Source: Neorhizobium galegae bv. orientalis str. HAMBI 540
Lineage (GTDB): Bacteria; Pseudomonadota; Alphaproteobacteria; Rhizobiales; Rhizobiaceae
NCBI RefSeq assembly: GCF_000731315.1
Contig: NZ_HG938354.1
Location: 1-64,000, forward strand
DNA: 64,000 nucleotides
Direction: 5' to 3'
The notes under the pieces were generated by a model. That model was not told where the DNA came from, did not search any database, and saw only the letters and a program-made list of their open reading frames with translations. Shown piece by piece: positions 1,195 through 27,512 of the stretch (its first letter is position 1; the number at the start of each line of letters is the position of its first letter). A program made the position numbers and the translations under genes.

Positions 1195-1198
1195 CTAG

Positions 1199-2200: not shown

Positions 2201-2204
2201 ACCG

Positions 2205-7769: not shown

Positions 7770-8492
7770 ATGATCGATCTTTATTATTGGCCGACGCCCA
7801 ACGGCAAGAAAGTCTCGATTTTCCTGGAGGAAACCGGCACGCCCTATAAGGTGATCCCGGTGCAGATTTCTCGCGGCGATCAGTTCAAGCCGGAGTTCCT
7901 GAAGATCAATCCCAATCATCGCATGCCAGCAATCGTCGACCACCAGCCGGCCGACGGCGGAGCGCCGATCAGCGTGTTCGAATCCGGTGCAATCCTCTTC
8001 TATCTCGCCGAAAAGACCGGCAAGCTCTGGCCGCAGGATTTGCGTACTAAATACGAAGTGGCCCAATGGGTCATCTGGCAGGTGGCCAACCAGGGACCGA
8101 AGCTCGGCGAAGCCGGGCATTTCCGCCGTTTGGGTGATCGCGAGGGCAACCAGTCCTACGCGGTGCGCCGCTTCACCGACGAGGCCAACCGTCTCTACGG
8201 CGTGCTGAATATGCGGCTGCGCGACCGTCCCTATCTCGCCGGCGACCAGTTTACGATCGCCGACATCATCAGCTATCCGTGGACCGTCGGCTGGCAGGCG
8301 CAGGGCCAGGACATCAACGAGTTCAAGCATTTCAAGCGCTGGTTCGACGACCTGAGCACACGGCCCGGCGTCCAGCGGGGGCTTGCTGTCGGCGCGGACC
8401 TCGCCGTCGACAATACCAAACTGCCGCCGGAGGAGCAGGAGCGAATCCGCAAGATCCTCTATAATCAACGGGCAATACCGGTCGCCGATTAG
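7770..8492 (+). CDS. Glutathione S-transferase, YfcG/YghU (Ure2-like) type
   Basis: A 240-residue glutathione transferase-fold protein. The N-terminal thioredoxin-like domain opens with MIDLYYWPTPNGKKVSIFLE and carries the glutathione-binding NHRMPAIVD cis-proline and ESGAIL motifs. The C-terminal helical domain includes WQAQGQDINEFKHFKRWFD. The Thr-Pro-Asn segment in place of a catalytic cysteine or tyrosine is typical of the Ure2-like disulfide-bond oxidoreductases YfcG and YghU. The ribosome site GGGAG precedes the ATG. It lies 71 bases before a peroxiredoxin gene on the same strand, so a shared role in peroxide or disulfide stress is likely. The substrate cannot be read from sequence. Confidence 0.88.
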   Translation: MIDLYYWPTPNGKKVSIFLEETGTPYKVIPVQISRGDQFKPEFLKINPNHRMPAIVDHQPADGGAPISVFESGAILFYLAEKTGKLWPQDLRTKYEVAQWVIWQVANQGPKLGEAGHFRRLGDREGNQSYAVRRFTDEANRLYGVLNMRLRDRPYLAGDQFTIADIISYPWTVGWQAQGQDINEFKHFKRWFDDLSTRPGVQRGLAVGADLAVDNTKLPPEEQERIRKILYNQRAIPVAD

Positions 8493-8563
8493 TCGGCCGG
8501 CTGCTAGAGTCCCGGCCATCCAAAAATGCGCAATCGATAGAAACAATTCAAGGGAGCCAAGAC

Positions 8564-9223
8564 ATGAGCCTTCGTATCAACGACATCGCGCCGGATTTCA
8601 CCGCCGAAACCACCCAGGGCACGATCCATTTCCACGACTGGATCGGCAGCGGCTGGGCCGTGCTGTTTTCCCATCCGAAGAACTTTACGCCGGTCTGCAC
8701 GACCGAACTCGGCGCCATGGCCGGCCTTGAGGGGGAATTTAGAAAGCGTGGGGTTAAGATCATCGGCATCTCCGTCGATCCGGTCGAAAGCCACGGCAAG
8801 TGGAAGGACGACATCAAGACGGCGACCGGTTTCGACGTCGAATATCCGCTGATCGGCGACCGCGATCTCAAGATCGCCAAGCTCTATGACATGCTGCCGG
8901 CCGGCGCGGGCGAAAGCTCGGAAGGCCGCACGCCTGCCGACAATGCGACGGTGCGTTCGGTTTACGTCATCGGCCCGGACAAGAAGATCAAGCTGATCCT
9001 CACCTATCCGATGACCACCGGCCGTAACTTCAACGAAATCCTGCGGGCGATCGACTCGATCCAGCTCACCGCCAAACACCAGGTGGCGACGCCGGCCAAT
9101 TGGCAGCAGGGTGAGGACGTGATCATCACCGCCGCCGTTTCCAACGAGGATGCGATCACCCGCTTCGGTTCGTTCGATACGGTCCTGCCCTACCTGCGCA
9201 AGACCAAGCAGCCCACGGCCTGA
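8564..9223 (+). CDS. 1-Cys peroxiredoxin (Prx6/AhpC-TSA family)
   Basis: A 219-residue thiol peroxidase. The peroxidatic cysteine is C45 in the motif FTPVCTTELG, and a C-terminal Prx domain is present. The length and the absence of a clear resolving cysteine place it in the 1-Cys Prx6 group. Arginine in NATVRSVYVIGPDKKI completes the usual active-site surroundings. A strong ribosome site (AAGGGAG) lies 7 bases before the ATG. It probably forms a stress unit with the upstream glutathione transferase, which could supply reducing power through glutathione. A rho-independent terminator follows 18 bases after the stop. Confidence 0.94.
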   Translation: MSLRINDIAPDFTAETTQGTIHFHDWIGSGWAVLFSHPKNFTPVCTTELGAMAGLEGEFRKRGVKIIGISVDPVESHGKWKDDIKTATGFDVEYPLIGDRDLKIAKLYDMLPAGAGESSEGRTPADNATVRSVYVIGPDKKIKLILTYPMTTGRNFNEILRAIDSIQLTAKHQVATPANWQQGEDVIITAAVSNEDAITRFGSFDTVLPYLRKTKQPTA

Positions 9224-9240
9224 TATCGTTCCATCCAGAC

Positions 9241-9278
9241 AAAAAGGCCGGCGGAGCAGATCGCTTCGCCGGCCTTTT
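9241..9278. terminator. Rho-independent terminator after peroxiredoxin
   Basis: An 8-bp perfect stem, GGCCGGCG (9246-9253) and CGCCGGCC (9267-9274), is flanked by AAAAA on the left and TTTT on the right. It can therefore act in both directions, for the peroxiredoxin gene on the plus strand and for the small minus-strand gene that ends at 9319. Confidence 0.85.
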
Positions 9279-9318
9279 GATGCGTTCCAGGAAACTGCCT
9301 CGCGCGGGACGAACCGTC

Positions 9319-9510
9319 TCAATAGACGGGATACATGCCCCAGAAAAAGCTTTCCGAATGTTCGCGATCGGGATCGCGGTTTTTGTCACCATCCTCGCGC
9401 ACCTTTTCAAGCGGCGTGCGCTCGGTGCTTTCTGTGTCTGCCTTGCCCGGCGCCCGCCGGCTCAGTCCGAACAGATCAAACCCAAACAGGGATAAGCCAC
9501 CAGCGATCAT
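9319..9510 (-). CDS. Small hypothetical protein (63 aa)
   Basis: A 63-residue open frame that starts with an apolar patch (MIAGGLSLFGFDLFGLSRRA) and continues as a highly charged tail rich in Lys, Asp, Glu and Arg, ending FFWGMYPVY. The case for a real gene is a textbook ribosome site, GGAGG, 6 bases before the ATG, and a terminator stem beyond its stop. No family is recognised. The apolar N-terminus could be a short membrane anchor or an amphipathic helix. Confidence is moderate because short frames arise by chance in GC-rich DNA. Confidence 0.5.
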   Translation of the reverse strand: MIAGGLSLFGFDLFGLSRRAPGKADTESTERTPLEKVREDGDKNRDPDREHSESFFWGMYPVY

Positions 9511-9683
9511 CGTCAGCCTCCGGTCGGTTGAACATCATGCCCGCTAACTTTCGGGCCAAACTCTGCTCGGGTCAATGTAGTCTATCAAAACCCTATACTA
9601 ATTCGTCAACGGGATGGAAACTATTATGTCCGAAATGTGGCAGTTGGCGAAATGCCGATCTTTGCAAGAGCACACGCGTGTCT

Positions 9684-11003
9684 TCAGGCGAAGAAACGGT
9701 TGGCCGGCCGTGGCAGGCCGAGATGGTCGCGAAGCGTCGATCCTTCGTAGTCGGTGCGGAAGATGCTGCGGCGCTGGAGTTCCGGAATAAGCCGCTGCGT
9801 CACGTCGTCCAGGCCCTGCGGCAGGTAGGGGAAAACAACCGTAAAGCCGTCGCTTGCCTCTTCCGAAAGCCAGGTCTGCATCTCGTCGGCAATGGTTTGC
9901 GGCGTGCCGACAAAGGCGAGGCCGGAATAACCGCCGTAACGCTGGGCGAGCTGGCGCACCGTCAGCTTTTCCTGTTCGGCGAGCTTCAGGACCTGGGCGC
10001 GGCCGGACTTGCTGGCGTTGGTCTCCGGAATGTCCGGCAACGGACCGTCCGGATCGAAACCGGAAGCGTCGTAGCCAAGCGCGATCGACAGCGAGGCGAT
10101 GGCGCTGTCGTAATGCACCAGGCTGTCGAGTTTCGCGCGCTTCGCCTTCGCTTCCTCGATGGTATCGCCGACGACGATGAACGCGGCCGGCAGGATCTTC
10201 AGATGGTCTGGATTGCGCGAGGCGGCGACCATGCGGCCCTTGATATCCCCATAAAGCGCCTTGGCAGCGGAAAGATCGCGTGGCGAACAGAAGACCAGTT
10301 CGGCGGTCTCGGCCGCAAGCTGGCGTCCCGGTTCCGATTGTCCGGCCTGGACGATCACCGGCCAGCCTTGCACCGGCCGGGCGATATTGAGCGGCCCGCG
10401 CACGCTGAGTTCCTCACCCTTGTGGTCCAGCACATGCATCTTCTCCGGATCGAAGAAGATGCCGCTTTGCTGATCGCGGATGAAGGCGTCGTCCGCAAAA
10501 CTGTCCCACAATCCGGTGACGACGTCGTAGAACTCGCGCGCCCGCTTGTAGCGCTCGCCGTGCTCCACATGTTCGTCGAGACCGAAATTACGGGCCGAAT
10601 CCGGGTTGGACGTGGTGACGATGTTCCATGCGGCGCGGCCGTTGCTGATATGGTCGAGCGAGGCGAACCGGCGGGCGACGTGATAGGGTTCGTCGAAAGT
10701 GGTCGAGGCGGTCGCCGCAAGGCCGATCTTCTCGGTGACGGCAGCCAGCGCCGAGAGCAGCGTGAACGGCTCAAACGACGTCACGGTATGGCTGCGCTTC
10801 AGCGCTTCGACCGGCATGTTCAGCACCGCGAGATGATCGGCCATGAAGAAGGCGTCGAACTTGGCAGCCTCCAGCTTCTGGATGAAGGACTTGATATGCC
10901 CGAAATTGAAATTGGCATCCGGATAGGCGCCGGGATATCGCCAGGCGCCGGTATGCAGGCTGACGGGACGCATGAAGGCGGTAAGGTGGAGTGGTCTTGC
11001 CAT
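9684..11003 (-). CDS. LLM-class flavin-dependent monooxygenase (NtaA/SnaA/DszA family)
   Basis: A 439-residue bacterial-luciferase-like FMNH2-dependent monooxygenase. It starts MARPLHLTAFMRPVSLHTGA and keeps family blocks such as ISNGRAAWNIVTTSNPDSARNF, HEERYKRAREF-like (GERYKRAREFYDVVTGLWDS) and PVIVQAGQSEPGRQLAAETA, quoted in part. The family cleaves C-S or C-N bonds in compounds such as nitrilotriacetate, dibenzothiophene sulfone and alkyl sulfones. It needs a separate flavin reductase, and none is seen nearby. It is transcribed divergently from an SfnB-type acyl-CoA dehydrogenase, a pairing common in organosulfur scavenging loci, so sulfur acquisition is the favoured role. The 269-base gap holds the shared promoters; no clear operator was recognised. 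Confidence 0.9.
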   Translation of the reverse strand: MARPLHLTAFMRPVSLHTGAWRYPGAYPDANFNFGHIKSFIQKLEAAKFDAFFMADHLAVLNMPVEALKRSHTVTSFEPFTLLSALAAVTEKIGLAATASTTFDEPYHVARRFASLDHISNGRAAWNIVTTSNPDSARNFGLDEHVEHGERYKRAREFYDVVTGLWDSFADDAFIRDQQSGIFFDPEKMHVLDHKGEELSVRGPLNIARPVQGWPVIVQAGQSEPGRQLAAETAELVFCSPRDLSAAKALYGDIKGRMVAASRNPDHLKILPAAFIVVGDTIEEAKAKRAKLDSLVHYDSAIASLSIALGYDASGFDPDGPLPDIPETNASKSGRAQVLKLAEQEKLTVRQLAQRYGGYSGLAFVGTPQTIADEMQTWLSEEASDGFTVVFPYLPQGLDDVTQRLIPELQRRSIFRTDYEGSTLRDHLGLPRPANRFFA

Positions 11004-14829: not shown

Positions 14830-15672
14830 ATGTCCATTTCCCGCTTCGCCTTCGCCGCTGAAACTGCCTCCACCCCGGTCGATCTTCTGCGCCAGCGTTA
14901 TGGATCGGATCAGCCGGCCTCGACGGCGGAGTGGAACACGGCGCTCGAGGCGATCCTTTCGCACCGTTCCGTTCGCACCTATCTGCCGAAACCAGTGCCT
15001 GAAAGCGTGCTGCATCTGATCGTCGCGGCGGCCCAATCGGCGCCGACCTCCTCCGGCCTGCAGGCCTGGAGCGTCGTGGCGGTCGAGGCCCCGAACGGCG
15101 GAAAAAGCTTGCCGAACTAGCCTCCCCCAATCCGCAGATCATCTCGGCACCCGCTCTTCCTCGTCTGGATCGCCGATCTCTCGCGGTTGAGGAAAATCAC
15201 CACCGAACAGGGCAAGACCGGAGAAGGCTTCGACTATCTCGAAAGCTTCCTGCTGGCGACGCTTGCCGCTCAGAATGCGCTGGTCGCGCTCGAATCGCTT
15301 GGTCTCGGCACCTGCTATATCGGTGGCATTCGCAACCATCCCGCCGAAGTGGGCGAACTGCTCGGCTTGCCGCCGGAGGCCTTGGCAGTGTTCGGAATGA
15401 CGGTCGGATACCCAGACCCGGCGGTCGGGACCGAGGTCAAGGCGCGCCTGCCGCAATCCCTCGTGCTTCATCGCGAGCAATATCAGGCAGCACCGCCGGA
15501 AGCGGATCTCGCCACCTACGATGACACGATGCGGCCCTTTCAGACCGGCCAGGGCATGGCGGTGCCCGGCTGGACCAGTGTCGTCGTGAGCCGCATTGCC
15601 GACGCACCGGCCTTGAAAGGCCGGCACGTGCTGCTCGATGTGGTGCGACGGATGGGTTTCAAGGTGAAATAG
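14830..15672 (+). pseudogene. NADPH-dependent nitroreductase/oxidoreductase, frameshifted
   Basis: An NfsA-like nitroreductase of about 280 residues, interrupted. The N-terminal part (14830-15120) carries the family blocks ILSHRSVRTYLPKPVPE and AAAQSAPTSSGLQAWSVVAV and then ends at a TAG (15118-15120). Homology continues in another frame (ERRKKLAELASPNPQIIS) and returns to the first frame near 15140 (LFLVWIADLSRLRKITTEQG). It runs on to 15672 with LLATLAAQNALVALESLGLG and GMTVGYPDP. One base seems lost near 15090 and one gained near 15140, so two compensating indels break the gene. A sequencing error cannot be ruled out; otherwise it is inactive. The start has AAGGAG close upstream. Confidence 0.82.
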
Positions 15673-15688: not shown

Positions 15689-16759
15689 TCAATCCACGAT
15701 CGGGACGATCTGCGCGGGATCAATCTGCAGCCAGGCCGGCGCGCCGACCTCGAAGACGTCCGCTGGCGGCGCGGCGACACGGAATTGCAATCCGCTGTCC
15801 GTCGACTGGAAGACGTAGTCCCAGGTCTCGCCAAGGAACGAGGATTGCCGCACCGAGCCTTGCAGGTTGATGGCCTTTTCCCGGGGAGCCTCGATTGCGG
15901 AAAGCTTCATCGCCTGCGGCCGGATGGAGACGGTGATCGGGCCGCCGCCAGAAACCTCTTCGCCGATCATTGCCCGCGGCACACTGAAGCCCGCAAAGTC
16001 GATCATGTGGTTGCCGCAATTGCCGGAGAGGAAATTGGTGCGGCCGATGAAGCTCGCCACAAACCGGGTCTTCGGCCGGCTGTAGAGCGCGTAAGGGCTG
16101 TCGATCTGTTCGAGGCGGCCGTTGTTCATCACAGCGATACGGTCCGAAGTCACCATCGCCTCTCCCTGGTCGTGGGTGACATAGACCGAGGTGATCTTGA
16201 ACTCGTCATGCATGCGCTTAATTTCGAAACGCATTTCTTCGCGAAGGTTGGCGTCGAGGTTCGAGAGCGGCTCGTCGAGCAGCAGTACGGCCGGACGGAT
16301 AACCACGGCGCGGGCGAGCGCGACACGCTGCTGTTGGCCCCCGGAAAGCTCGGCCGGGTAACGGTCGGCGAGATGGCTCATCCGCACGGTTTCCAGCACC
16401 GCGCCGACGCGCTTCTTGACTTCATCGCTCGGCAGCTTGCGCAGGTTGAGGCCGAAGGCGACGTTCTGCGACACCGTCATGTTCGGCCAGATCGCGTAGG
16501 ACTGGAAGATCATCGACATGCCGCGCTTTTCCGGCGGCACGGAGCCTGATGGTGCCGACAATATTTTACCGTCGAGCTCGATCGAGCCGGAGGTGGGGTC
16601 GATGAAGCCTGCGATCATCCGGAGCGTCGTCGTCTTGCCGCAGCCGGAAGGGCCGAGCAGCGAGACGAATTCGCCGGGCTTGATATGCAGGTCGAAATCC
16701 AGAACCGCATCGACGGCACCGAAACGGCGACCGAGTTTCCTGAGGACAAGTCCGTCCAT
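15689..16759 (-). CDS. ABC transporter ATP-binding protein (Fbp/Pot type)
   Basis: A 356-residue importer ATPase. Walker A is LLGPSGCGKTTTLRMIAG, the Q-loop FQSYAIWPNMTV, the signature [14 protein letters not shown], Walker B PAVLLLDEPLSNLD, and the switch VTHDQGEA. A C-terminal TOBE-type regulatory region covers about residues 260-356. Start at the ATG with GAGGAGAA upstream. Its first base overlaps the permease stop (TAATG), showing translational coupling. With the double-length permease and the periplasmic binding protein upstream it forms an iron/thiamine/polyamine-class importer, transcribed last in the six-gene unit that begins at 23106. The cargo is unknown. Confidence 0.92.
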   Translation of the reverse strand: MDGLVLRKLGRRFGAVDAVLDFDLHIKPGEFVSLLGPSGCGKTTTLRMIAGFIDPTSGSIELDGKILSAPSGSVPPEKRGMSMIFQSYAIWPNMTVSQNVAFGLNLRKLPSDEVKKRVGAVLETVRMSHLADRYPAELSGGQQQRVALARAVVIRPAVLLLDEPLSNLDANLREEMRFEIKRMHDEFKITSVYVTHDQGEAMVTSDRIAVMNNGRLEQIDSPYALYSRPKTRFVASFIGRTNFLSGNCGNHMIDFAGFSVPRAMIGEEVSGGGPITVSIRPQAMKLSAIEAPREKAINLQGSVRQSSFLGETWDYVFQSTDSGLQFRVAAPPADVFEVGAPAWLQIDPAQIVPIVD

Positions 16760-18528
16760 TAGCTTCTCCTCAACATGAAGTCGCGGCCGAGATAACGCAT
16801 CCCGATGGCGACGACTGCGACAATGATGATCAATAACAGGGAGCCCAGCGCCGCGAGCTTTTCGAGCTCGCCTTCTTCGCTGAGATCGAGCAGCACGACG
16901 GAAACGACGCGCGTGGTGGGACCGACCAGGAAGATGGCGGTCGAGAGTTCCTGGGCGGCCGGCACGAAGATCAGCAGCCAGCCGCCGGCGAGCGTCCGCT
17001 TCAACAGCGGCCCGACCACATGCCTGAGCGCCGTCACCCGTCCGCCGCCGAGAATGCGCACCGCCTCCTCCATTTCCGGATGGATGCTGCGCACGCCGGC
17101 CGAGCTGGTGGTGAAGGCGATCGGCAGGAAGCGGGTAACGAAGGCAAGCGCCATGATCGTATAGGTGCCGTAGAGCGCGATCGGCGGCAGGGCGTAAGCC
17201 GCATAAAAACCGATGGCGAGCACGATGCCGGGCACCACATAGGGCGAGACCGCCAGGAAGGCGAGCAGGCCCGAGAACGGGATCAGCTTGCGCTGGACGA
17301 TATAGGCGATGAACAGCGCCAGCGTGATTGCCACCGTCGCTGCCACGATGCCGAGGCCGATGCTGCCGACCAGCGCCTTTTGCGAGCTCGAATGCTCGAA
17401 GAGCACGTAGTGGAAATTGGAAAGCGTCAGGTTGCTGAACGAGAAGCCGGCCGTCCAGGAATCGGAGAAGGCAGCGAGAAGCAGCACGAACATCGGCATT
17501 AGCACCGACAGCGCCACGACGCAGAAACAATAGGCAAACAGCACCCAGCGCCACCTGCCGAGCTTGACGATGCGGCGCTCGCCGCCCTTGCCGCTGACCG
17601 AGACGTAACCCTTGCGACGCAGGATCAGCTTCTGCAGCCCGAGCATCGCGGCGGTGATCAGCAGCAGCGGGATCGAATAGGCGGCGGCCACCTGGATCCG
17701 CAGCGGGAACGAGAAGAACTCGGTGAGTTGGATCACCACGACCGGGTAGCGCGCCGGGATCGAGATCAGCGCTGGCACGCCGTAGAGCGCAATCGCACCG
17801 AGGAAGGACAGAAGAGCCGAGCCGATGATCGCCGGCATGACCAGCGGGAACGTCACCTTCATGGCCGTCTTGAACGGGCCGGCGCCGAGGATGTTGGCAG
17901 CGTCCTCCATCTCCGAATTGATCATCTCGAAGGCCGAACTCACCAGCACGAAGACGAGGAAAAAGCCGCCGATCGCGGTGACCAGCACCAGTCCGCCGAA
18001 GGAGAAGATGTTGACCAGCGGCTCGGTGGAACCGGAAAGGCTGTGCCAGACGCGGTTGATCCAGCCGGTATTGGGGCCAGCGAGCAGGATCCAGCCGACG
18101 CCGGCGAGATAGGGCGGCATGATGAAGGCGCCGAACACGCTGTAGCGCACGAAATTGCGGCCCGGCATATCGGTGCGGGTGCAGGCCCAGGCGAGCGGCA
18201 CGCCGAAGGCCAGTTTCAGCACGACGACGACGGCCCCCATCTTCAGCGTATTGGTGAGCGCCGTGATGTGGCGTTCCTTGCCATAGGCCTCGACATAGTT
18301 GTGAAGCGTCCAGCCGCCCGTTTTGGCATCGGTGAAACTGGAGACGACGAGCGTCCACATCGGCGCGACGATCAACACGACCAGGATGCCGGCCAGGAAC
18401 ACCCAGAGCAGATTGGCCGGCTGTAGCCGCTGGCGCCAGGGCACGCGCACCTTCACCGGCTGGTCGTCTGACCAGGTGGTGGCTACGGGATGGGAAACAC
18501 TCGTCATGATCGGCGCTCGCTTTGTCAC
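16759..18528 (-). CDS. ABC transporter permease, fused double-domain (FbpB/ThiP type)
   Basis: A 589-residue inner-membrane permease made of two tandem binding-protein-dependent transport domains. Two EAA-type loops are visible (EDAANILGAGPFKTAMKVTF around residue 210 and EEAVRILGGGRVTALRHVVG around residue 495). The hydrophobic profile suggests about twelve membrane segments. This single-chain layout is typical of iron(III), thiamine and some 2-aminoethylphosphonate importers. It follows the binding protein gene after 74 bases that contain a stem-loop, and it is coupled to the ATPase. The cargo is unknown, but co-location with the CxxC protein and flavoprotein points to their substrate. Confidence 0.91.
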   Translation of the reverse strand: MTKRAPIMTSVSHPVATTWSDDQPVKVRVPWRQRLQPANLLWVFLAGILVVLIVAPMWTLVVSSFTDAKTGGWTLHNYVEAYGKERHITALTNTLKMGAVVVVLKLAFGVPLAWACTRTDMPGRNFVRYSVFGAFIMPPYLAGVGWILLAGPNTGWINRVWHSLSGSTEPLVNIFSFGGLVLVTAIGGFFLVFVLVSSAFEMINSEMEDAANILGAGPFKTAMKVTFPLVMPAIIGSALLSFLGAIALYGVPALISIPARYPVVVIQLTEFFSFPLRIQVAAAYSIPLLLITAAMLGLQKLILRRKGYVSVSGKGGERRIVKLGRWRWVLFAYCFCVVALSVLMPMFVLLLAAFSDSWTAGFSFSNLTLSNFHYVLFEHSSSQKALVGSIGLGIVAATVAITLALFIAYIVQRKLIPFSGLLAFLAVSPYVVPGIVLAIGFYAAYALPPIALYGTYTIMALAFVTRFLPIAFTTSSAGVRSIHPEMEEAVRILGGGRVTALRHVVGPLLKRTLAGGWLLIFVPAAQELSTAIFLVGPTTRVVSVVLLDLSEEGELEKLAALGSLLLIIIVAVVAIGMRYLGRDFMLRRS

Positions 18529-18570
18529 TGGAGGCGTCGGAAACAGGTCACGCCGCCAGGCGTGATGGAC

Positions 18571-18594
18571 GGAGGCCAGATGTTGCCGGCCTCC
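18571..18594. promoter_or_regulatory. Intercistronic stem-loop between binding protein and permease genes
   Basis: Perfect 7-bp arms GGAGGCC and GGCCTCC are separated by 10 bases. The element lies between the end of the binding-protein gene and the permease start and has no T-run. Such hairpins commonly protect the upstream message and keep the binding protein more abundant than its membrane partners. Confidence 0.5.
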
Positions 18595-18602
18595 GATACG
18601 GT

Positions 18603-19652
18603 TCAGATCCCGAACGTGTCGCGGAACTTCTCCTGCACCTCAGGCAGCTTCTTGATGCCGTCGGCCGTCGCGATCGACTTCGTCTTATAGCTGTTGAGCG
18701 GACGCATGCCTTCGGCAAGCGGCACGCCGGCCCGAAGCGGGTAGCGGTAGTCCTTGGCGAAGTATTCTGCGATTTCCGGTCCGAGCAGGAAGTTCTCGAA
18801 CAAACGTGCGGCATTCGGATGCGGCGCATCCTTCATGATCGCTGTTGCCGAGGGCGGCAGCAGTGCGCCGTCGGTCGGGTAGATGACGCCGATCGGCACC
18901 TTCTTGAGGATCGAGTCCGACAGGATCAGCGGCAGCGGCGCCAGTGCCACCTTGCGCTCGCCCGAGGCGACAAGGTTATGCCCATCGGCCACCGAGCGGC
19001 CGATCTGTGGCTTGTTCTTCTCGATCTTGGTGAAGAAATCCCAGCCGTAGAGGTCGTTCATCAGGATGGTCCATAGCCCAACACTGCCGGAGAAGCTCGG
19101 ATGGCCGATGGCCACCTGGCCCTTCCATTTCGGATCGGCAAGATCGGTCCAGTTCTTCGGGGCTTCCGCCTCGGTCACCAGCTTGGTGTTGTAGGCGATG
19201 ACGAGAGGCGAGACGCCGGATGTAATCCAGTAGTTCTCCTTGTCGGCGAGCGCCCGAAGCTCCGGCACCATGTCCTTGAGGTTTTCCGGGGCGAACTGGG
19301 CAAGCGCGCCTTGTTCTTTCAGCTGCAGCATCTGGCCGTCGTCATTGGTCGACATCAGGTCGCCCTGCACCGCTTTTGCCTGCAGTTCCTGCACGAGGCG
19401 CTGGAAGATGACCTGGCCGGAGGCACGCACGACGTTGCAGCCGACGCCGGCATATTTCGCCTTGAACAGGCCGCACATGCCGTCGGCGAACTCGGTGGTC
19501 GTCTGCGAGACGTACCAAGTGACCGAACCTTCCTTTTTGGCGGCGTCGTAAAGCTGCTTTTCGCCGGCCGTCATTTCAGCCGCGCCGGCAAGACCGGCTG
19601 CCAGCAAGAATGCCGGAACCAGGCCGGCCACATAGGTAATGGCATGCTTCAT
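18603..19652 (-). CDS. Periplasmic ABC substrate-binding protein (iron/Fbp-like fold)
   Basis: A 349-residue exported binding protein. A Sec signal peptide (MKHAITYVAGLVPAFLLAAG, cleavage near AGA/AE at residue 24-26) precedes the mature protein (KEGSVTWYVSQTTTEF). Later blocks such as VSPLVIAYNTKLVTEAEAPK and PHPNAARLFENFLLGPEIAE are usual for Fbp/Fut-type and related binding proteins. It has two Cys close together in the mature N-terminal lobe (MCGLFKAKYAGVGCNVV). A classical iron-tyrosine pair is not evident, so the ligand may be organic rather than ferric iron. A GGGAGGAG-type site precedes the ATG. It is the fourth gene of the putative unit starting at 23106. Confidence 0.88.
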   Translation of the reverse strand: MKHAITYVAGLVPAFLLAAGLAGAAEMTAGEKQLYDAAKKEGSVTWYVSQTTTEFADGMCGLFKAKYAGVGCNVVRASGQVIFQRLVQELQAKAVQGDLMSTNDDGQMLQLKEQGALAQFAPENLKDMVPELRALADKENYWITSGVSPLVIAYNTKLVTEAEAPKNWTDLADPKWKGQVAIGHPSFSGSVGLWTILMNDLYGWDFFTKIEKNKPQIGRSVADGHNLVASGERKVALAPLPLILSDSILKKVPIGVIYPTDGALLPPSATAIMKDAPHPNAARLFENFLLGPEIAEYFAKDYRYPLRAGVPLAEGMRPLNSYKTKSIATADGIKKLPEVQEKFRDTFGI

Positions 19653-19764
19653 GATCTCTCCTCCCTTTGATCCGGCCCATTGCCGGCGACAAGCTCGACC
19701 CTCCCGAGCTTAGAAATTCACGTTTTCCTTCCGCCGCAATCGATCCCGGTGGCGATGTTCCTCA

Positions 19765-20454
19765 TCATTCGCCGGGGATCAGCTGGCGTTCCACCGGGCG
19801 CATCAGCGCCAGGAAGTCGCTGAAATATTCGCCCTGGATGACGACATGGTTGCGCATTGCATCGCGGGCGCGGGCGTCGTCTCGGTCCCGGATCGCTGCA
19901 AGCACCTCGTCGTGCTCGGACAACGAACTGTTGACGCGTCCGGGCACCCGCAGCTGCAGGCGCCGATAGGGCTTCAGCCGTCGCTGCAGCGCATGGGCAT
20001 TTTCCGCCAGAAAGCCGTTGCCGCTCGCCTCGTAGATCACCCGGTGGAATTCCGCGTTGGCGTAATAATAATCGTCCGAATTGCCGGCCTGTTGGGCGGT
20101 GGCGCAGGCGGCTTGCGCCTCCTCGAGCAATTTCAGCTGTTCCGGGCGGATGCGGCGAGCGGCAAGCCGGGCGCACATCGCCTCCAGTTCGCCCATCACC
20201 TCGAACATTTCGACAAGCTCGGTGATCGTCAGCTGGGTGACGAAGGCGCCGCGATTGGGCACCATTCTGATGAGGCCCATGGTGCTCAGCTGGATCAACG
20301 CCTCGCGCACCGGCGTGCGGGACACCTGATGGCGGGCCGCAAGCCCCGCTTCGTCGAGCCTGTCGCCGGGGGAATAGAAACCGGTGACGATATCCTGCTC
20401 GATCGCGTCGCGAACGCTCGGTTTGCCCTGTTTGCCTTTGAGCAGCACGTTCAT
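19765..20454 (-). CDS. GntR-family (FCD/FadR subclass) transcriptional regulator
   Basis: A 229-residue regulator. The N-terminal GntR winged helix covers about residues 5-75 (SVRDAIEQDIVTGFYSPGDR, VSRTPVREALIQLSTMGLI). The C-terminal FCD ligand-binding domain covers about 80-225, with Asp and His residues (ANAEFHRVIYEA, LSEHDEVLAAIRDRDDARA) that normally hold a metal for carboxylate ligands. Start at the ATG 4 bases beyond the flavoprotein stop; an upstream in-frame start would overlap that gene. It sits inside the unit it probably controls, and GTATGCAA half-sites upstream of both this unit and the malonate genes are its candidate operators. It may therefore serve the role of MatR. Confidence 0.9.
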   Translation of the reverse strand: MNVLLKGKQGKPSVRDAIEQDIVTGFYSPGDRLDEAGLAARHQVSRTPVREALIQLSTMGLIRMVPNRGAFVTQLTITELVEMFEVMGELEAMCARLAARRIRPEQLKLLEEAQAACATAQQAGNSDDYYYANAEFHRVIYEASGNGFLAENAHALQRRLKPYRRLQLRVPGRVNSSLSEHDEVLAAIRDRDDARARDAMRNHVVIQGEYFSDFLALMRPVERQLIPGE

Positions 20455-20458
20455 GGGC

Positions 20459-21436
20459 CTATCCTGCCGATGCGGCCGCGATATCACGCGGTCCTGCCTG
20501 TTGGGTATTACCCTGACGCTGTGCCAGATGGCGCACCGCGGAAATTGCTGCCGTCACGCCGTCGCCTGCCGAGGCCGCCAGATGCGCGACCGAGCGGGCT
20601 CGGATGTCGCCGGCCGCGAAAATGCCCGGCACAGATGTCTGCATGTCGAGATCGACAACGATCCGGCCATCGGCCGCGAGCGTTACCGTGTCGTTGAGGA
20701 AAGACGTATTGGGCTCAAGTCCGACATAAACGAAGACGCCATGGCAGGGGAGATCGCTCTCTGCGCCCGTCGAAAGATCGCGGACGGTTATGGCGCTGAC
20801 GCCGCCTTCGCCGCGGATCGCGGTCGCCACCGTGTTCAGTCTGACTTCGATGTTGGAGGCTTCCCGTGCTTTCGCCTGCAATGCGGCGCTGGCACGGAGG
20901 CGCAAACCGCGGTGGATGACCGTGATGCGGGCAGCATGAGGGACCAGCGCCAGCGCTTCGTCGAGTGCGGAATCCCCGCCGCCGAGGATGCACACGTCCT
21001 TGCCGCGCATCAATGGTCCGTCGCAGGAAGCGCAATGGGAAACGCCGCGCCCTTCGAATTCCGCCTCGCCCGGAATGCCGAGCGTGCGCTTGGCCGAGCC
21101 GGCCGCTATGATCACTGCGCCTGCCGTCAGATCGAGATCGCTACCCGCGATGCGGAAGCCGGTATCCGTCTTCGAGATGGTCTCGATCGTATCGAGCGCG
21201 AATTCGACGCCGGCCTCGTCCGCCTGCATCTGCAGCATCGGGCCGAGTTCGAAACCGGACATGCCCTCGGCTGGCCCCGGGAAATTGTCGATGCGGTCGA
21301 CATTGATCACCTGGCCGCCGGCACCGAGCATGTCGATGATCATCGTGCGGGCACCGTGGCGGGCAGCAGCGATGGCTGCATTGAGCCCCGCCACGCCGGC
21401 GCCGATCACGGCGATATCGTGGTCGTTCGCGCTCAT
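20459..21436 (-). CDS. Thioredoxin-reductase-like FAD/NAD(P)H flavoprotein
   Basis: A 325-residue pyridine nucleotide-disulfide oxidoreductase of the low-molecular-weight thioredoxin reductase type. It contains the FAD-binding GAGVAGLNAA (residues 12-21), the redox-active pair C135/C138 in SHCASCDGPL, the NADPH-binding GGGDSALDEA and the C-terminal FAD motif GIFAAGDIRA. The chosen ATG starts 2 bases after the stop of the large CxxC protein gene; a TTG four codons earlier would overlap that gene. Immediate coupling suggests that it reduces the upstream protein or its disulfide product rather than a general thioredoxin. No thioredoxin gene is in the window. Confidence 0.92.
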   Translation of the reverse strand: MSANDHDIAVIGAGVAGLNAAIAAARHGARTMIIDMLGAGGQVINVDRIDNFPGPAEGMSGFELGPMLQMQADEAGVEFALDTIETISKTDTGFRIAGSDLDLTAGAVIIAAGSAKRTLGIPGEAEFEGRGVSHCASCDGPLMRGKDVCILGGGDSALDEALALVPHAARITVIHRGLRLRASAALQAKAREASNIEVRLNTVATAIRGEGGVSAITVRDLSTGAESDLPCHGVFVYVGLEPNTSFLNDTVTLAADGRIVVDLDMQTSVPGIFAAGDIRARSVAHLAASAGDGVTAAISAVRHLAQRQGNTQQAGPRDIAAASAG

Positions 21437-21438
21437 CG

Positions 21439-23106
21439 TCAGCGCCAATCGTCGACGGAAACGGTCGTGCGGTAATGCGCGCCGTAGATCTGCCAGTAGC
21501 CGTTGGACTCGCCGCCGACGACCACGACATTGATATCCTGCGGGCGGAAGATATGGATAAGTTCGTCCTTGCCGGGCTTCAGCTTGCCCGCCATCGGTTC
21601 CTCGCCGAAGGTTGCGCGCGGATAGATGTAGTTCTGGACGAGCTGCAGATCCCAGTAACGGCCGGCCGGCATCTGCGCCGTCTCATAGATGAAGTCGAGC
21701 AGATCCTGCTTGTTCACGAACCCGCCGCGATCGATGAACTGCCTGGCGCAGATCGGGTCGAGCACCAACGTCGGCGCGGTGATCGCATCGGTGCCGAGCA
21801 GCATGTCGCGCACGTGCTCGCGCCAATATTCCTTGCGCAGGCCAAGGCTGAAGGTCGTGGAACGGCAGCCGTGAAAAATGCTGACGGTGCTCGTCCCGGC
21901 GTCGAAACCCTTCTGCACATGCAGCGGCTCCCACGGACTGCGCTCCTCGTTTTCCGCGAAGGTGAGGTTGTTGTAGGTATAATTGTTGCCGAGCGAGCCC
22001 ATGAAGGTTTCGCCGACAACCGAGCCGCCCTGCAGGTTCTGCGACAGGAGCCCGAAGGCGCGACCGATCGTGGCATTGGCATGGCTGTAGGGGCCGAGCG
22101 CGCCAACGCCGCAGTTCATGCCGATCTCGTTGCGAACAGGTCCGTTGACGACGGCCATAGCCGCTGCCGAAGAAGAGGTCGATCCACGCGCGGAGACCTG
22201 AGCCGCCGCCAATGCCAGGATGACCGGAAAATACTCGGGCGACGCGCCGGCCATGACGGCGTTCACGGCGACCTTCTCGACCGTGTATTCCCACAGGCCG
22301 CGATTGGTGGTCGGCTGCATATGGCCGACGACCTCGTCCGGCTTGCGGGAGGTCGCCGCCAGCATGTCGGCGACGCGGGCGTCGGTCGGCAGGATGATCG
22401 GCAGCTTGTCGGTCCAGCTGTTGCGCAGGAACGTGGCGTGGAGATTGTCTTCCGTGTCCGGTTCAATGAGGCGCGGCGTGCTGCGCTCGAACTGCGCATC
22501 CTCGGCGCTCGCCGAAAGGCCAACGGTCAAAGCCGCGATGATTTCCTTCATCACCGGTTTTCCGCTGAGCGGATCCGTGCCTTCCACATAGGCGCGCAGC
22601 TCTTCCGGCGTCTTGCCCATTACCGGCTGCGGCACGAAGACCAGCGGCTGCTGCGAAAGCCCGCCCATCTTGGCGACGGAGCGGACGACCTTGTCGAATT
22701 TTTCGGTATGAATGGCTGCGGTCGGTACGCCGTATTTGGTTTCCAGCGTGATCGCATGGGTGGTGACGGCCGGTGCGCAGGTGCTGCAATGGCCGACGCC
22801 GATAATCGCGGCATGGCCGTTCGCCTTGATCTCTTCCCAGAGCTGCGGGTCGTCCTTGGAATAGGTGTTCGCCATCTGGCGAATCCGCACGTCCACGGAG
22901 GGCATGTTGCGTGCAAACCAGGCCTCGACCTCCTTCAGGAGCTCGACGGAATCGTCAAAGCGGCTGTCGACCAGATAGACGACCTTGCCGTCGAGGCTTG
23001 TCGGGCGGTCGGCCGGCTGCTTGCGGCTGACCTTGGGCGGATAGCCCATCGGATTGTGGACGGTGACGAGCGGCTGAGCGCTGTCCGGTTTTCCCTGTTG
23101 CAACAT
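21439..23106 (-). CDS. Large CxxC protein resembling the UGSC family; probable thiol-redox enzyme
   Basis: A 555-residue protein of uncertain function. The N-terminal domain (about residues 35-170) includes VVYLVDSRFDDSVELLKEVE and the motif GHCSTCAPAVTTHAI with C107 and C110. The motif's place after AAIIGVG and before a helix recalls the UGSC (Cys/Sec-Gly-Ser-Cys) family. The remaining part (about 250-555) contains VNAVMAGASPEYFPVILALA, GMNCGVGALGPYSHAN, NNYTYNNLTFAENEE and an extra Cys in IFHGCRSTT. Both motif cysteines are ordinary TGC codons, so it is not a selenoprotein. Start at the ATG with GGAGGAAG upstream. It heads a unit with a thioredoxin-reductase-like protein, GntR and an ABC importer, so reductive processing of an imported compound is inferred. 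Confidence 0.7.
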   Translation of the reverse strand: MLQQGKPDSAQPLVTVHNPMGYPPKVSRKQPADRPTSLDGKVVYLVDSRFDDSVELLKEVEAWFARNMPSVDVRIRQMANTYSKDDPQLWEEIKANGHAAIIGVGHCSTCAPAVTTHAITLETKYGVPTAAIHTEKFDKVVRSVAKMGGLSQQPLVFVPQPVMGKTPEELRAYVEGTDPLSGKPVMKEIIAALTVGLSASAEDAQFERSTPRLIEPDTEDNLHATFLRNSWTDKLPIILPTDARVADMLAATSRKPDEVVGHMQPTTNRGLWEYTVEKVAVNAVMAGASPEYFPVILALAAAQVSARGSTSSSAAAMAVVNGPVRNEIGMNCGVGALGPYSHANATIGRAFGLLSQNLQGGSVVGETFMGSLGNNYTYNNLTFAENEERSPWEPLHVQKGFDAGTSTVSIFHGCRSTTFSLGLRKEYWREHVRDMLLGTDAITAPTLVLDPICARQFIDRGGFVNKQDLLDFIYETAQMPAGRYWDLQLVQNYIYPRATFGEEPMAGKLKPGKDELIHIFRPQDINVVVVGGESNGYWQIYGAHYRTTVSVDDWR

Positions 23107-23193: not shown

Positions 23194-24726
23194 CTATTTT
23201 GCGGCCGCTGCTGTGGGCTCGAAAGTTCCGGAGAACTGATTGCGGAGTATATTCTTCTGCACCTTGCCCATCGTGTTGCGTGGCAATTCGGTCATAAATG
23301 CCACCTTTTTCGGGCGTTTATAGCCCGCCAGACGGCCGTCGAGCGCCTTGATGACCTCCTGTTCGGTCAGTTGGGCCTCCGATTTCAGGACGATCGCGGC
23401 AATGATGCCCTCGCCGAAATCCGGATGCTTGACACCGAACACGGCACTTTCGATGACGCCGGGCATGGCGTCGATCTCCATCTCCACCTCTTTCGGGTAT
23501 ACATTATAGCCGCCGGTGATGATGAGGTCCTTGCCGCGGCCGACGATATGGACATAACCGTCCTTGTCGATCTTTCCGAGGTCGCCGGTGATGAAGAAGC
23601 CGTCCTTGCGGAATTCCGCCGCGGTCTTTTCCGGCATGCGCCAGTAACCCGAAAACACGTTGGGGCCGCGCACCTCGATCATGCCGATTTCCTCGGTGCC
23701 GAGGGAGGCGCCTGTTTCGGCGTCAGTGACCCGAACCTGGACCCCCGGCAACGGGAACCCGACCGTGCCGGCGACACGCCGACCGTCATAGGGGTTCGAG
23801 GTGTTCATGTTGGTTTCGGTCATGCCGTAGCGCTCGAGGATGGCGTGACCGGTGCGTGCCTGCCATTCCTCGTGGGTTTCGGCCAGAAGCGGCGCCGAGC
23901 CGGAGACGAAGAGGCGCATATGGGCGGTGCTGTCCCTGTCGAGCCCCGAATGTTGTAGCAGCCGGGTGTAGAAGGTCGGCACCCCCATCAGCACGGTCGC
24001 CTTCGGCATCGCCTCCATGATCTTGTTCGGATCGAATTTCGCCTGGAAAATCATCGAGGCGCGCGAGGCGAGCACGACGTTGGTGGCGACGAAAAGCCCG
24101 TGGGTGTGGAAGATCGGCAGCGCGTGGATCAGCACGTCCTTGTCCGTGAAACGCCAGCTTTCCACCAGCGACACCGCGTTCGACAGGAGGTTGTCGTGGC
24201 TGAGCATGGCGCCCTTGGAACGCCCGGTCGTGCCGGACGTATAGAGGATCGCGGCGATATCCGCCCCGCCCCGCGCCGAGGTTTCGGTTATCGGCGTGGC
24301 TATGGCGGCGGCATCGGTCAACGTCCCCTTGCCTGCCAGGTCGAGCGTCAGGATCTTCGCGCCTGCCGCCTTGGCGATCGGCTGCAGCGCTTCGAATCTC
24401 GAGGGATCGCAGACGAAGATCGAGGGCTCGGCGTCGGTGAGGAAATATTCGATTTCCGCCGGCGTATAGGCGATGTTGAGCGGCAGGTAGATGCCGCCTG
24501 CCCTGACCGTCGCAAGATAAAGCGCCAATGCTGCGACCGACTTTTCCGCCTGGACGGCCACCCGGTCGCCCGGCTGCAGGCCGGCTTCGAGAAGCGCTCC
24601 GGCGAGCCGCGCGCATTGATCGGCGAAAGCGCGGTAGCTCATGGTACCGACCGTTTCGTCCGTCAGGAGCAGCCGGTCCTCCCGGTCGAGCCCGCCGAGC
24701 AGCGCGTCGTAGAGATTACCAGCCAT
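23194..24726 (-). CDS. matB: Malonyl-CoA synthetase (MatB), acyl-activating enzyme
   Basis: A 510-residue AMP-forming acyl-CoA synthetase. The AMP-binding signature ILYTSGTTGRSKGAMLSH is intact, followed by YGMTETNMN, the GDLGKIDKDGY hinge and the C-terminal catalytic lysine region RNTMGKVQKN. Length and gene order, directly behind a malonyl-CoA decarboxylase, match MatB of Rhizobium, which makes malonyl-CoA from malonate, ATP and CoA. The ribosome site AGGAGGTG is perfect. The start overlaps the matA stop by one base (TGATG). No matC malonate carrier is present; the ABC importer downstream could take that part, but this is speculative. Confidence 0.92.
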   Translation of the reverse strand: MAGNLYDALLGGLDREDRLLLTDETVGTMSYRAFADQCARLAGALLEAGLQPGDRVAVQAEKSVAALALYLATVRAGGIYLPLNIAYTPAEIEYFLTDAEPSIFVCDPSRFEALQPIAKAAGAKILTLDLAGKGTLTDAAAIATPITETSARGGADIAAILYTSGTTGRSKGAMLSHDNLLSNAVSLVESWRFTDKDVLIHALPIFHTHGLFVATNVVLASRASMIFQAKFDPNKIMEAMPKATVLMGVPTFYTRLLQHSGLDRDSTAHMRLFVSGSAPLLAETHEEWQARTGHAILERYGMTETNMNTSNPYDGRRVAGTVGFPLPGVQVRVTDAETGASLGTEEIGMIEVRGPNVFSGYWRMPEKTAAEFRKDGFFITGDLGKIDKDGYVHIVGRGKDLIITGGYNVYPKEVEMEIDAMPGVIESAVFGVKHPDFGEGIIAAIVLKSEAQLTEQEVIKALDGRLAGYKRPKKVAFMTELPRNTMGKVQKNILRNQFSGTFEPTAAAAK

Positions 24727-26099
24727 CAAAACACCTCCTGGGAAACCGGTTGGGCCAGTTTGCGCAGCGCCGGCGTCGCCGCGATATGGCCGTTTTCGGC
24801 ATAAGCCTCGTGATTTTTCTCGATCTCGCCGAGCCGGTAGCGATAGTTGATCATCAGGCCGTAGGACTGGCGCATGCCCTTCGGCGAACGATCGCCGAGG
24901 AAGTTGAGGCGCTCGGCCTGGGCGCCGTTGCCGAGGTGGAACCGCGCGACCGGATCGACCGGCCGACCGTTGCCGCGCCGGACGTTCAGCAGGTAATGCG
25001 CGCCGAGCGGCAGCATGGCGCGCTGAATCTGGTCGAGTTCGCGCTCGCCGGCCGATGCCCAATCCCCTTCGAGCTGGGCCAAAAGCCGCTGCTTTTCTCG
25101 GGCGATCTCCGCGCTGTCGGTGACACGGCTCTCGCCACGCAGCCAGGCGCCGAAGCCCGGTATGGGAGAGAGCGTCACGAAATTCTCCAGCCGCGGCAGG
25201 TCGCGCTTCAGGTCGTTCACCACCTGCTTGATCAGGAAGTTGCCGAGCGAAATGCCGGCAAGGCCGCGCTGGCAATTGGAAATCGAATAGAACACGGCGG
25301 TCGTCGCCTGCTGCACTTCCAGCGGCTGGCGATCACGGGCGAGGAGCGCGTCGACCGAAGCCGGCAGGTGGTCGGTCAGCGCCACCTCGACGAAGATCAG
25401 CGGTTCGTCCTCCAATTGCGGGTGGAAGAAGCCGAAGCAACGGCGGTCGGCCGGCGCCAGCCGTCGGCGCAGATCGTCCCAGCCGTCGATATCGTGCACG
25501 GCCTCATAGCGGATCAGCGCCTCCAGGATATTGGCGGGCGTGGTCCAGTCGATCGATCGCAACATCAGGAAACCCCGGTTGAACCATGAGGAGAAGAGAT
25601 GGCAGAAATCGAGGTCGACCGGCTGCAGCGCCGGTTCCTTGGCCAACATGTCCATCAGGTGCTCGCGCATCTCGACCAGCGTTGCGGTGCCGCGCTTGGC
25701 GAAATTGATGCGGCGGAAAAGCTCCTGCCGGCGCGGCTCGGCCGCCTCGTGCAGCCTAGCAATATTCTCTGCGCTCGGCTCGGTGTTATAGGCGGCCGCC
25801 GCGGCATCCAGGACCGTGCGATCGGGGCCGAAACGGTCCAGCAGCGCGCGCATGAAGGCGTCACGCTCCGGGGCACTTGCCTGGCGGTAGGCTTCGAGGA
25901 AGGCTTCGGCAAGAATGGCGCCGGAGACCTCGCCGCGGCGCGACAGGATCATTTCGGCAAGGCCGGTGAGATCGCGGTTCTGCACCGGCGGCGATGAAAG
26001 GCCGAACAAGGCCCGACCTCGGCCGGACAAAGACTGGATCAGCTCGCCGATAAACGGAGGAGCATCCCACCAGCCGAAAACCGGATCCCTACTGCTCAT
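24726..26099 (-). CDS. matA: Malonyl-CoA decarboxylase (MatA)
   Basis: A 457-residue malonyl-CoA decarboxylase. The N-terminal helical part covers residues 1-150. The catalytic GNAT-like part contains FFHPQLEDEPLIFVEVALTD, TAVFYSISNCQRGLAGISLG, TLSPIPGFGAWL and the C-terminal VARFHLGNGAQAERLNFLGD, all usual for the family. It converts malonyl-CoA to acetyl-CoA plus CO2, completing malonate use with MatB. It is the first gene of the matAB pair. An 8-bp inverted repeat (TTGCATAC and GTATGCAA) lies 22-52 bases upstream of its start and probably binds the local GntR regulator. Confidence 0.94.
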   Translation of the reverse strand: MSSRDPVFGWWDAPPFIGELIQSLSGRGRALFGLSSPPVQNRDLTGLAEMILSRRGEVSGAILAEAFLEAYRQASAPERDAFMRALLDRFGPDRTVLDAAAAAYNTEPSAENIARLHEAAEPRRQELFRRINFAKRGTATLVEMREHLMDMLAKEPALQPVDLDFCHLFSSWFNRGFLMLRSIDWTTPANILEALIRYEAVHDIDGWDDLRRRLAPADRRCFGFFHPQLEDEPLIFVEVALTDHLPASVDALLARDRQPLEVQQATTAVFYSISNCQRGLAGISLGNFLIKQVVNDLKRDLPRLENFVTLSPIPGFGAWLRGESRVTDSAEIAREKQRLLAQLEGDWASAGERELDQIQRAMLPLGAHYLLNVRRGNGRPVDPVARFHLGNGAQAERLNFLGDRSPKGMRQSYGLMINYRYRLGEIEKNHEAYAENGHIAATPALRKLAQPVSQEVF

Positions 26100-26180: not shown

Positions 26181-27401
26181 CTATTCCATGGCGAGGATCA
26201 TGTTGCGGACGACGGGATAGATTTCCTTCTCCCAGCGGCGGCCGCTGAAGACGCCATAGTGTCCGACATTGGCCTGCAAATGATGGCGGCGCAGGTGCGG
26301 GCGTAGCGAATGACAGAGGTCATGGGCTGCAGACGTCTGGCCAAGCCCGCAGATATCGTCGCGCCCGCCTTCGACGGTCAGCAGCGCCGTGGCGCGGATA
26401 TGGTTCGGGTCCACCTTGCGGCCATGGTGGGTGTAGTTGCCGCTCGCCAGCTCCGCCCTCTGGAACACCCGATCGATGGTCTCGATATAAAATTCTTCGG
26501 TCATGTCGAGCACGGCGAAATATTCGTCGTAGAAATGCTTGATCTTGTCCGCCTCGGCGGTCTCGCCATTGGCGAGGTGGCGGTAGAGCTTGCGATGCGC
26601 CTCGACATGCCGCTCCATGTTCATGCTCATGAAGGCGACGAGCTGCAGGAAACCGGGATAAACGCGCCGCCCGCTGCCGGGAAAGCCCATCGGAACACCG
26701 GTGATCAGCTCGCTCTTGAACCAGGACAGCGGCTTTGAGACCGCAAGTTCGTTGACCTTGGTCGGGCTCTCGCGGGTGTCGACCGGTCCGGCCATCAGCG
26801 TCATGGTGCGCGGAGTTGCCGGGTTCTTTGCCTCCGACATCACCGCAACGGCGACGAGCGCCTGTACGCAGGGCTGGCAGACGGCGAGGATATGTCCGCG
26901 CGGACCAATCTCTTCCAGGAAGCGGATAATGTAGTCGACATAATCGTCCATGCCGAAGCGGCCGGCGGACGTGGATACGTCCCGCGCATTGGCCCAGTCG
27001 GTGACGTAGACGTCATGATCCTTCAGCAGCGTCTGGACGGTGCCGCGCAGCAGCGTCGCGAAATGGCCGGAGAGCGGTGCGACCACCAGCACCCGCGGAC
27101 GGGGCGTATCGACATCGGCCACAAAATGCAGGAGCCGGCCGAAGGGCAGGTCGAGCGCCGTCTCGACTGATATCGGCACGTCGCGATTGCCGATCGTCAC
27201 CGAGGTGATCTCGAATTCCGGCCGCTCGTGAGAAATCTTGAAGCGGGACATCAATTCCAGTGCTGCGGCAGCATGCCGACCCATTTCGGAGCCGGCGCCG
27301 AAGAACAATGTCGAAGACATCAGTTGCAGGCGTCGGGCCATATCCCGTATCGGGGCGAGGAGGTCGTCCTGGAATTGATAGGCCTGATAGAGCATGAACA
27401 T
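26181..27401 (-). CDS. phaZ: Intracellular polyhydroxyalkanoate depolymerase
   Basis: A 406-residue intracellular PHB depolymerase that mobilises stored polyester. The nucleophile elbow is AVCQPCVQALVAV, with a cysteine where secreted depolymerases have serine, as in known PhaZ1 enzymes. MTLMAGPVDTRESPTKVNEL and a C-terminal VGHYGVFSGRRW (catalytic His) complete the alpha/beta-hydrolase triad region. The start is ATG 27401 or ATG 27395, with GAGCGGGGA in front. It is divergent from a glutathione transferase gene, with about 110 bases between. It is not obviously part of the malonate unit, although both feed acetyl-CoA metabolism. Confidence 0.92.
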   Translation of the reverse strand: MFMLYQAYQFQDDLLAPIRDMARRLQLMSSTLFFGAGSEMGRHAAAALELMSRFKISHERPEFEITSVTIGNRDVPISVETALDLPFGRLLHFVADVDTPRPRVLVVAPLSGHFATLLRGTVQTLLKDHDVYVTDWANARDVSTSAGRFGMDDYVDYIIRFLEEIGPRGHILAVCQPCVQALVAVAVMSEAKNPATPRTMTLMAGPVDTRESPTKVNELAVSKPLSWFKSELITGVPMGFPGSGRRVYPGFLQLVAFMSMNMERHVEAHRKLYRHLANGETAEADKIKHFYDEYFAVLDMTEEFYIETIDRVFQRAELASGNYTHHGRKVDPNHIRATALLTVEGGRDDICGLGQTSAAHDLCHSLRPHLRRHHLQANVGHYGVFSGRRWEKEIYPVVRNMILAME

Positions 27402-27512
27402 GTCCCCGCTCACCGCAAAAATGCGGCAGTGCAAAAATGCTAGTGCAATATGTCTCGCGATGCGAGAAGATTGTCTTCGGACTGCATGATTGTCCGGCAA
27501 GGATTGAAACTG

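Follow-up and report, generated by a model that had tools for sequence, protein, structure and literature searches.

Glycine reductase and D-proline reductase, whose Sec/Cys subunits are GrdB and PrdB, provide the nearest known chemistry to the reaction that we propose here for a member of the selenoprotein family UGSC. The family itself is already known by sequence. Zhang and Gladyshev named the UGSC/Unknown_1 fusion in 2008, guessed at a Trx-like fold for UGSC, and counted 255 Sec sequences of it across 37 Global Ocean Sampling samples, which makes it one of the commoner selenoprotein families there; the available portion of that paper does not mention an operon, a TrxR partner, or any tie to malonate (PMC2398784). 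A 2026 review, in the excerpt available, lists UGSC among the selenoproteins whose functions are largely uncharacterized (PMC13188914). As far as their accessible text goes, the open-access PMC papers on UGSC are surveys and reviews of selenoproteins, trace elements, or tRNA-Sec, and they give no function, TrxR partner, or malonate link.

The rhizobial matRABC and matPQMAB systems, as described in the available part of PMC5237526, share MCD (MatA), MatB, and a GntR regulator with the locus analyzed here, but our locus lacks MatC or a TRAP transporter and has an ABC importer, a UGSC protein, and a TrxR instead. In the Cloacibacillus fluoroacetate operon, recruited GrdB-like proteins encoded beside a transporter cleave a substituted carboxylate (PMC10838667, available part); the genes differ from those of the UGSC unit, and the operon serves as an analogy only. 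A sequence-only reading of our locus knew of no characterized pathway with such a layout, and none was present in the accessible parts of the open-access PMC papers on UGSC, TrxR, and malonate. Relative to that literature, the TrxR partner and the malonate context described below are new.

The window, which is the whole 64,000-nt stretch of DNA that was analyzed, lies at the start of a 1.8-Mb secondary replicon in a 6.46-Mb Neorhizobium genome. The features of interest are as follows.

24726..26099, minus strand: MCD (MatA-like malonyl-CoA decarboxylase), 457 aa, the gene with which the drawn unit begins (PF05292, 3.3e-101; PF17408, 6.6e-30)
23194..24726, minus strand: MatB-like malonyl-CoA synthase, 510 aa, start taken from the ORF list (PRK07514.1, 830.7 bits, cut-off 558; AMP-binding, 1e-83)
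21439..23106, minus strand: UGSC two-domain protein, 555 aa, UGSC domain at residues 16-175 (PF24696, 1.6e-25)
22777..22788, minus strand: CxxC codons of the UGSC protein, Cys107-Ser-Thr-Cys110
20459..21436, minus strand: TrxR-like flavoprotein with CASC, 325 aa, the proposed UGSC reductase (Pyr_redox_2, 6.1e-47; TIGR01292, 1.1e-89)
19765..20454, minus strand: GntR/FCD regulator, 229 aa (Pfam GntR and FCD)
18603..19652, minus strand: solute-binding protein (SBP) of the ABC importer, 349 aa (Pfam SBP_bac_6)
16759..18507, minus strand: double permease of the ABC importer, 582 aa (BPD_transp_1, two stretches)
15689..16759, minus strand: ATPase of the ABC importer (ABC_tran and TOBE_2)

The six minus-strand genes from 15689 to 23106 had been read as one unit, and they were found at exactly these positions with the motifs described for them. 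Their assignments (UGSC, TrxR-like protein, GntR, binding protein, permease, and ATPase) were all borne out by Pfam and NCBIfam. The statement that several of them are spaced by -1 to 4 nt held at three of the five junctions, which were UGSC/TrxR (2 nt), TrxR/GntR (4 nt), and permease/ATPase (1 nt shared by the permease stop and the ATPase start); it failed at GntR/SBP and SBP/permease, where the coordinates gave distances of 112 nt and 95 nt. The six-gene unit proved to be incomplete. MatB and MCD lie upstream on the same strand as the UGSC gene, with an 87-nt gap between MatB and UGSC and a 1-nt overlap of the MatB start with the MCD stop, and they bring the total to eight genes.

A survey of gene neighborhoods, suggested earlier for all six genes, found the full order with the malonate genes ahead (MCD-MatB-UGSC-TrxR-GntR-SBP-permease-ATPase, on a single strand) in 12 of the best 80 of 533 loci that encode a relative (L026-L033, L036, L037, L039, and L089). 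The majority were close Neorhizobium relatives; the exceptions, L037 and L039, were Chelativorans loci in which UGSC was 73% identical. As judged by gene order, the recurrence of all eight genes in 12 loci is more than chance. The subfamily of the window protein is over-represented in these best 80 of 533 because the search patterns included GVGHCSTC.

Two neighboring genes were left outside the unit as drawn. About 80 nt upstream of MCD and on the same strand was a gene for an intracellular PHB depolymerase (26184-27404, minus strand; PF06850, 3.6e-89), which may belong to the same transcript as the MCD unit; this depolymerase cluster (c38) adjoins MCD in several Rhizobiaceae relatives. On the plus strand, a nitroreductase-family gene (14830-15672) was split by an in-frame stop into two ORFs that share a frame (14830-15120 and 15187-15672, with PF00881 in the second part) and is either a pseudogene or a sequence error.

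The 555-aa protein had been described as a UGSC-like CxxC protein, and a profile search agreed. It matched PF24696 at 90.6 bits (cut-off 25; E = 1.6e-25; residues 16-175) and contained GHCSTCAP, in which the two Cys residues of the motif are Cys107 and Cys110. Its score against the UGSC equivalog model of NCBIfam, NF041046, was 62.5 bits, which was under the cut-off of 125; the model was built on UGSC short forms. No clear match placed it in a known enzyme family with a non-redox reaction, an outcome that had been named in advance as grounds for abandoning a redox role. The C-terminal domain (about residues 196-555, or ~360 residues) had neither a Pfam family nor a clear PDB match, and we infer that it is the same as the 'Unknown_1' domain of PMC2398784. 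Two features of the family in the available part of that paper, Sec or Cys at the first motif position and fusion to a second domain, were also found here.

The AlphaFold2 model of the 555-aa protein (pLDDT 91.2, pTM 0.90) had five alternating strands and helices at residues 42-158 in the UGSC domain, and the top listed PDB matches of this domain were Rossmann-like. These modeled similarities argue against a Trx fold, although a list of matches excludes nothing. Homologues were abundant, with at least 7795 matches among the 7998 candidate proteins scored, and the closest named relatives among the matches listed were from Neorhizobium; UGSC was found in 5 of 398 genomes in a phylum scan and in 6 of 151 genomes in a family scan. 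One locus, L072, contained two UGSC two-domain genes (650-2272, plus strand; 7527-9149, minus strand), and the second, 50% identical, had its own TrxR at 9218-10120.

GrdB and PrdB (PF07355) resemble the UGSC protein in outline, as each has a Sec/Cys-x-x-Cys motif and depends on thiol reducing power. When profiles were compared using hhalign, the CSTC of UGSC aligned on the CPVC of PrdB-like proteins with a probability of 52.7 (E = 1.4e-4, 53 columns), versus 11.3 or less for the controls (six unrelated families and the protein's own C-terminal domain) and 35.5 in another PrdB comparison. This remote likeness of the CxxC sequences is suggestive, not proof. Two short-form UGSC proteins and that of L019 had no match to PF07355 at E values up to 10, only to PF24696, and the protein in the window matched PF24696 alone and not PF07355 at E values up to 1. 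In glycine and proline reductase, a partner subunit has a pyruvoyl group derived from a conserved Cys, Ser, or Thr; at N331-C332 of the UGSC protein, no such residue was invariant among the distant relatives compared, and residue 332 varied. PrdB-like proteins (PF07355, 300-311 aa, PNCPVCHQ) were common in Bradyrhizobium and others (L106-L110, from alphaproteobacterial and related genomes); some are annotated as 'glycine reductase'.

At position 107, which aligned exactly at the first position of the CxxC motif, 56 of the best 80 of 533 relatives had Cys and the other 24 had an in-frame TGA (23 of the TGA rows were placed by pattern and one, L105, by eye). A tRNA-Sec was taken as clear from 69 bits upward (the next score was 52.7). 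Such a tRNA-Sec was detected in 12 of 13 genomes with the TGA placed at the motif, compared to only 3 of 13 genomes with the Cys form, and for this reason the TGA was read as Sec. The lone TGA genome of the 13 without a clear tRNA-Sec, G110, was 68% complete; G455, with a strong tRNA-Sec and a TGA that was not placed, and G422, with an in-frame TGA away from the motif, were kept outside the count. The second Cys was not universal since GSS replaced xxC in the short-form relative L002. In two loci, a tRNA-Sec was located near the UGSC gene: L024 (G455:C31; tRNA at C31:7168-7258, UGSC at 5009-5515) and L019 (G001:C85; tRNA at C85:29674-29766, UGSC at 36595-37059).

The flavoprotein had been characterized by its CASC and both nucleotide-binding motifs, a description that fits its matches to Pyr_redox_2 (6.1e-47) and to the thioredoxin reductase model TIGR01292 (300.3 bits, E = 1.1e-89, below the cut-off of 343.45). 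It shares FAD/NAD(P) domains and a CxxC with TrxB, and its best solved match was 2q7v (3.9e-65), but it contains CASC and HRG, whereas the TrxB of the same genome (L173) contains CATC and HRR. The only other close TrxR homologues in the genome were two proteins at 35% and 32%.

TrxR homologues were located within 3 kb of UGSC in 44 of the best 80 of 533 loci, and on the same strand in 42 of these 44. They accompanied both Cys and Sec forms and occurred in Alpha- and Betaproteobacteria, Chloroflexota, Myxococcota, and Thermodesulfobacteriota. In a TrxR tree of 47 rows, 42 UGSC-linked rows clustered separately from the genome's canonical TrxB, at a weak node (86/58), and 39 of these 42 had CASC. 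The TrxRs of three more distant UGSC loci all fell outside the cluster, and that of L021 paired with an ordinary TrxB. The tree omits the short match L069 and five complete TrxRs whose alignment extended into the stop codon of the gene itself (L019, L041, L057, L071, and L085), and it includes one genome twice (L015/L038).

Both the co-occurrence in 44 loci and the grouping of UGSC-linked TrxRs as their own kind favor the earlier proposal of a dedicated TrxR-type partner. Neighborhoods in which the flavoprotein and the CxxC protein do not co-occur had been named as evidence against it; among the 53 loci flanked by 3 kb or more on both sides, a TrxR was within 3 kb in 37 and absent in 16, which counts in part against it. 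Two distant loci encode a thioredoxin-like domain at the N terminus of the second domain (best PDB matches of 3.6e-4 in L021 and 4.1e-4 in L024), for which Pfam gave a match of 0.0082, below the cut-off, in one of the two and no match in the other. The Sec/Cys exchange, the nearby TrxR of its own kind, and the thioredoxin-like fusions make a UGSC/TrxR redox couple well supported at the level of sequence; electrons would pass directly from this TrxR-like protein to the UGSC protein.

The two additional genes connect the unit with malonate. MCD had a single match in its own genome, and MatB and MCD together likely make malonate the end product or the inducer of the unit. Among the best 80 of 533 UGSC loci, MatB (at least 50% identity, within 8 kb) was present in 15, MCD (at least 45%, within 10 kb) in 15, and either in 17. 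These genes were found in three arrangements relative to UGSC: on the same strand ahead of it, divergent from it (L061), or past the importer (L085 and L091). The placement of UGSC-linked MCDs in one clade was rejected (p-AU 0.003), and UGSC-linked MatBs were compatible with one clade (p-AU 0.32); near-copies were left out of both trees. Because the UGSC-linked MCDs did not form one lineage, the pairing of MCD with UGSC probably arose more than once. Repeated pairing is likely on this phylogenetic evidence, but loss or transfer could yield the same picture.

For comparison, we used 20 Rhizobiaceae MCD loci, drawn from 101 genomes of which 44 had an MCD match. MatB was present in all 20 of these ordinary malonate loci and UGSC in none of the 20. 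One carried a TRAP transporter (L148), matching matPQMAB, and one from the same genus as the window carried MatC (L153), matching matRABC, as these systems appear in the available part of PMC5237526. With malonate genes at only 17 of the best 80 of 533 UGSC loci, the association of UGSC with malonate may not extend beyond this branch, and the gene neighborhoods support the link for this branch only; elsewhere, UGSC adjoins other genes, such as TctC/TctA or an aldo/keto reductase. Another part of the same genome (L172 6806-7291, C2:1139805-1140242) contains a C-terminal MatB fragment (66% identical over residues 358-503, ORF of 162 aa), which may be what is left of another malonate locus.

The GntR regulator was 46-51% identical to regulators in 19 of the 20 ordinary malonate loci. 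This similarity is not diagnostic because a 44% identical paralogue in the same genome adjoins a different ABC importer. A tree test of GntR, from which six rows below 36% and near-copies were omitted, gave a p-AU of 0.27, and the sequences are compatible with kinship to MatR.

The importer had been linked to UGSC, and this link was recovered in 19 of the best 80 of 533 loci, in which the permease was present at 60% identity or more. Fifteen of the 19 also had MatB or MCD, and four did not (L038, L066, L070, and L077; L070 is a 6.5-kb contig). Neither the importer permease nor the binding protein was found in the 20 UGSC-free malonate loci, except for weak 25% matches in L151 and L161. These two results tie the importer to UGSC rather than to the malonate genes. 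The nearest solved relatives of the binding protein were Fe3+-type binding proteins. A Mem_trans (AEC-type) permease replaced the ABC importer in L034, together with MatB, UGSC, TrxR, and GntR, and by cluster assignment in L035, together with MatB and UGSC; in other lineages, TctC/TctA genes were near UGSC. On these neighborhoods, the importer, the AEC-type permease, and the TctC/TctA genes point to carboxylates. In Ramlibacter and related loci (L041, L048, L050, L051, and L069), an aldo/keto reductase gene was directly before UGSC and TrxR was after it, with TctC before or after (the Pfam assignment was made on the L051 copy); these loci probably represent another substrate route of the UGSC enzyme family.

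The sequences themselves show which genes are present and in what order, the families to which they belong, the Cys/Sec exchange, the co-occurrence with TrxR, and the malonate genes. We tentatively propose, as the best explanation of the whole and at somewhat less than an even chance, that the eight genes from 26099 to 15689 are one catabolic operon in which UGSC and TrxR reductively yield malonate. The ABC importer would take up a small carboxylate, a malonate derivative, which the C-terminal domain of the UGSC protein would bind. Cys107 in the N-terminal domain (Sec in relatives) would act as the nucleophile that cleaves the substrate reductively, Cys110 would resolve the intermediate, and the TrxR-like flavoprotein with NAD(P)H would re-reduce the Cys107/Cys110 pair. 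The malonate produced would be converted by MatB to malonyl-CoA and by MCD to acetyl-CoA, under the control of the MatR-like GntR regulator. Substrate binding by the C-terminal domain, the reductive chemistry, and malonate as product rather than imported compound are the predicted parts of this scheme.

Malonate itself could instead be the cargo of the importer, which would then stand in for MatC or the MatPQM TRAP transporter, with UGSC and TrxR in a side role such as by-product repair or detoxification. Ordinary loci likewise join MatA/MatB, a transporter, and GntR (L148 with TRAP, L153 with MatC; available part of PMC5237526), and L034 and L035, which have UGSC and MatB, hold an AEC-type permease and not the ABC importer. 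We consider this explanation unlikely; the importer is found beside UGSC without MatB or MCD in 4 of 19 loci and in none of the 20 UGSC-free malonate loci. A different possibility is that the UGSC reaction yields malonate non-reductively, the Cys/Sec nucleophile acting in a transfer or a C-C/C-X cleavage and TrxR only preventing oxidation. That no reaction is reported for the UGSC family in the accessible open-access PMC literature (including PMC2398784 and PMC13188914) leaves room for such chemistry, as does the GSS that replaces xxC in L002, but Sec in place of Cys, the linked reductase, and the thioredoxin-like fusions point to reduction linked to turnover, and we consider this possibility unlikely as well.

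The neighbors of UGSC varied widely among the best 80 of 533 loci, and 63 of the 80 had no malonate gene at the distances tested, as would be expected if UGSC were a general thiol oxidoreductase whose placement by malonate genes in Rhizobiales and Rhodobacterales was accidental. The three MCD arrangements and the MCD tree, in which UGSC-linked sequences were not a clade, argue against an accident of this kind, and we give it little credence. The preferred reading, reductive formation of malonate by UGSC and TrxR, can be extended to a joint claim for the family that we regard as doubtful in its entirety. UGSC fusions would be a new class of aerobic thiol/selenol reductases that join a Rossmann-like Cys/Sec domain to a new substrate domain, use their own TrxR rather than thioredoxin, and cleave substituted carboxylates reductively; the Neorhizobium member would make malonate from a plant or soil compound that is new as a bacterial carbon source.

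The operon context suggests a testable role for the selenoprotein family UGSC. As the operon links a UGSC member to an end product that is known and to a reductase of its own, this orphan family could be assayed with both proteins in purified form, NAD(P)H, and a handful of malonate derivatives.
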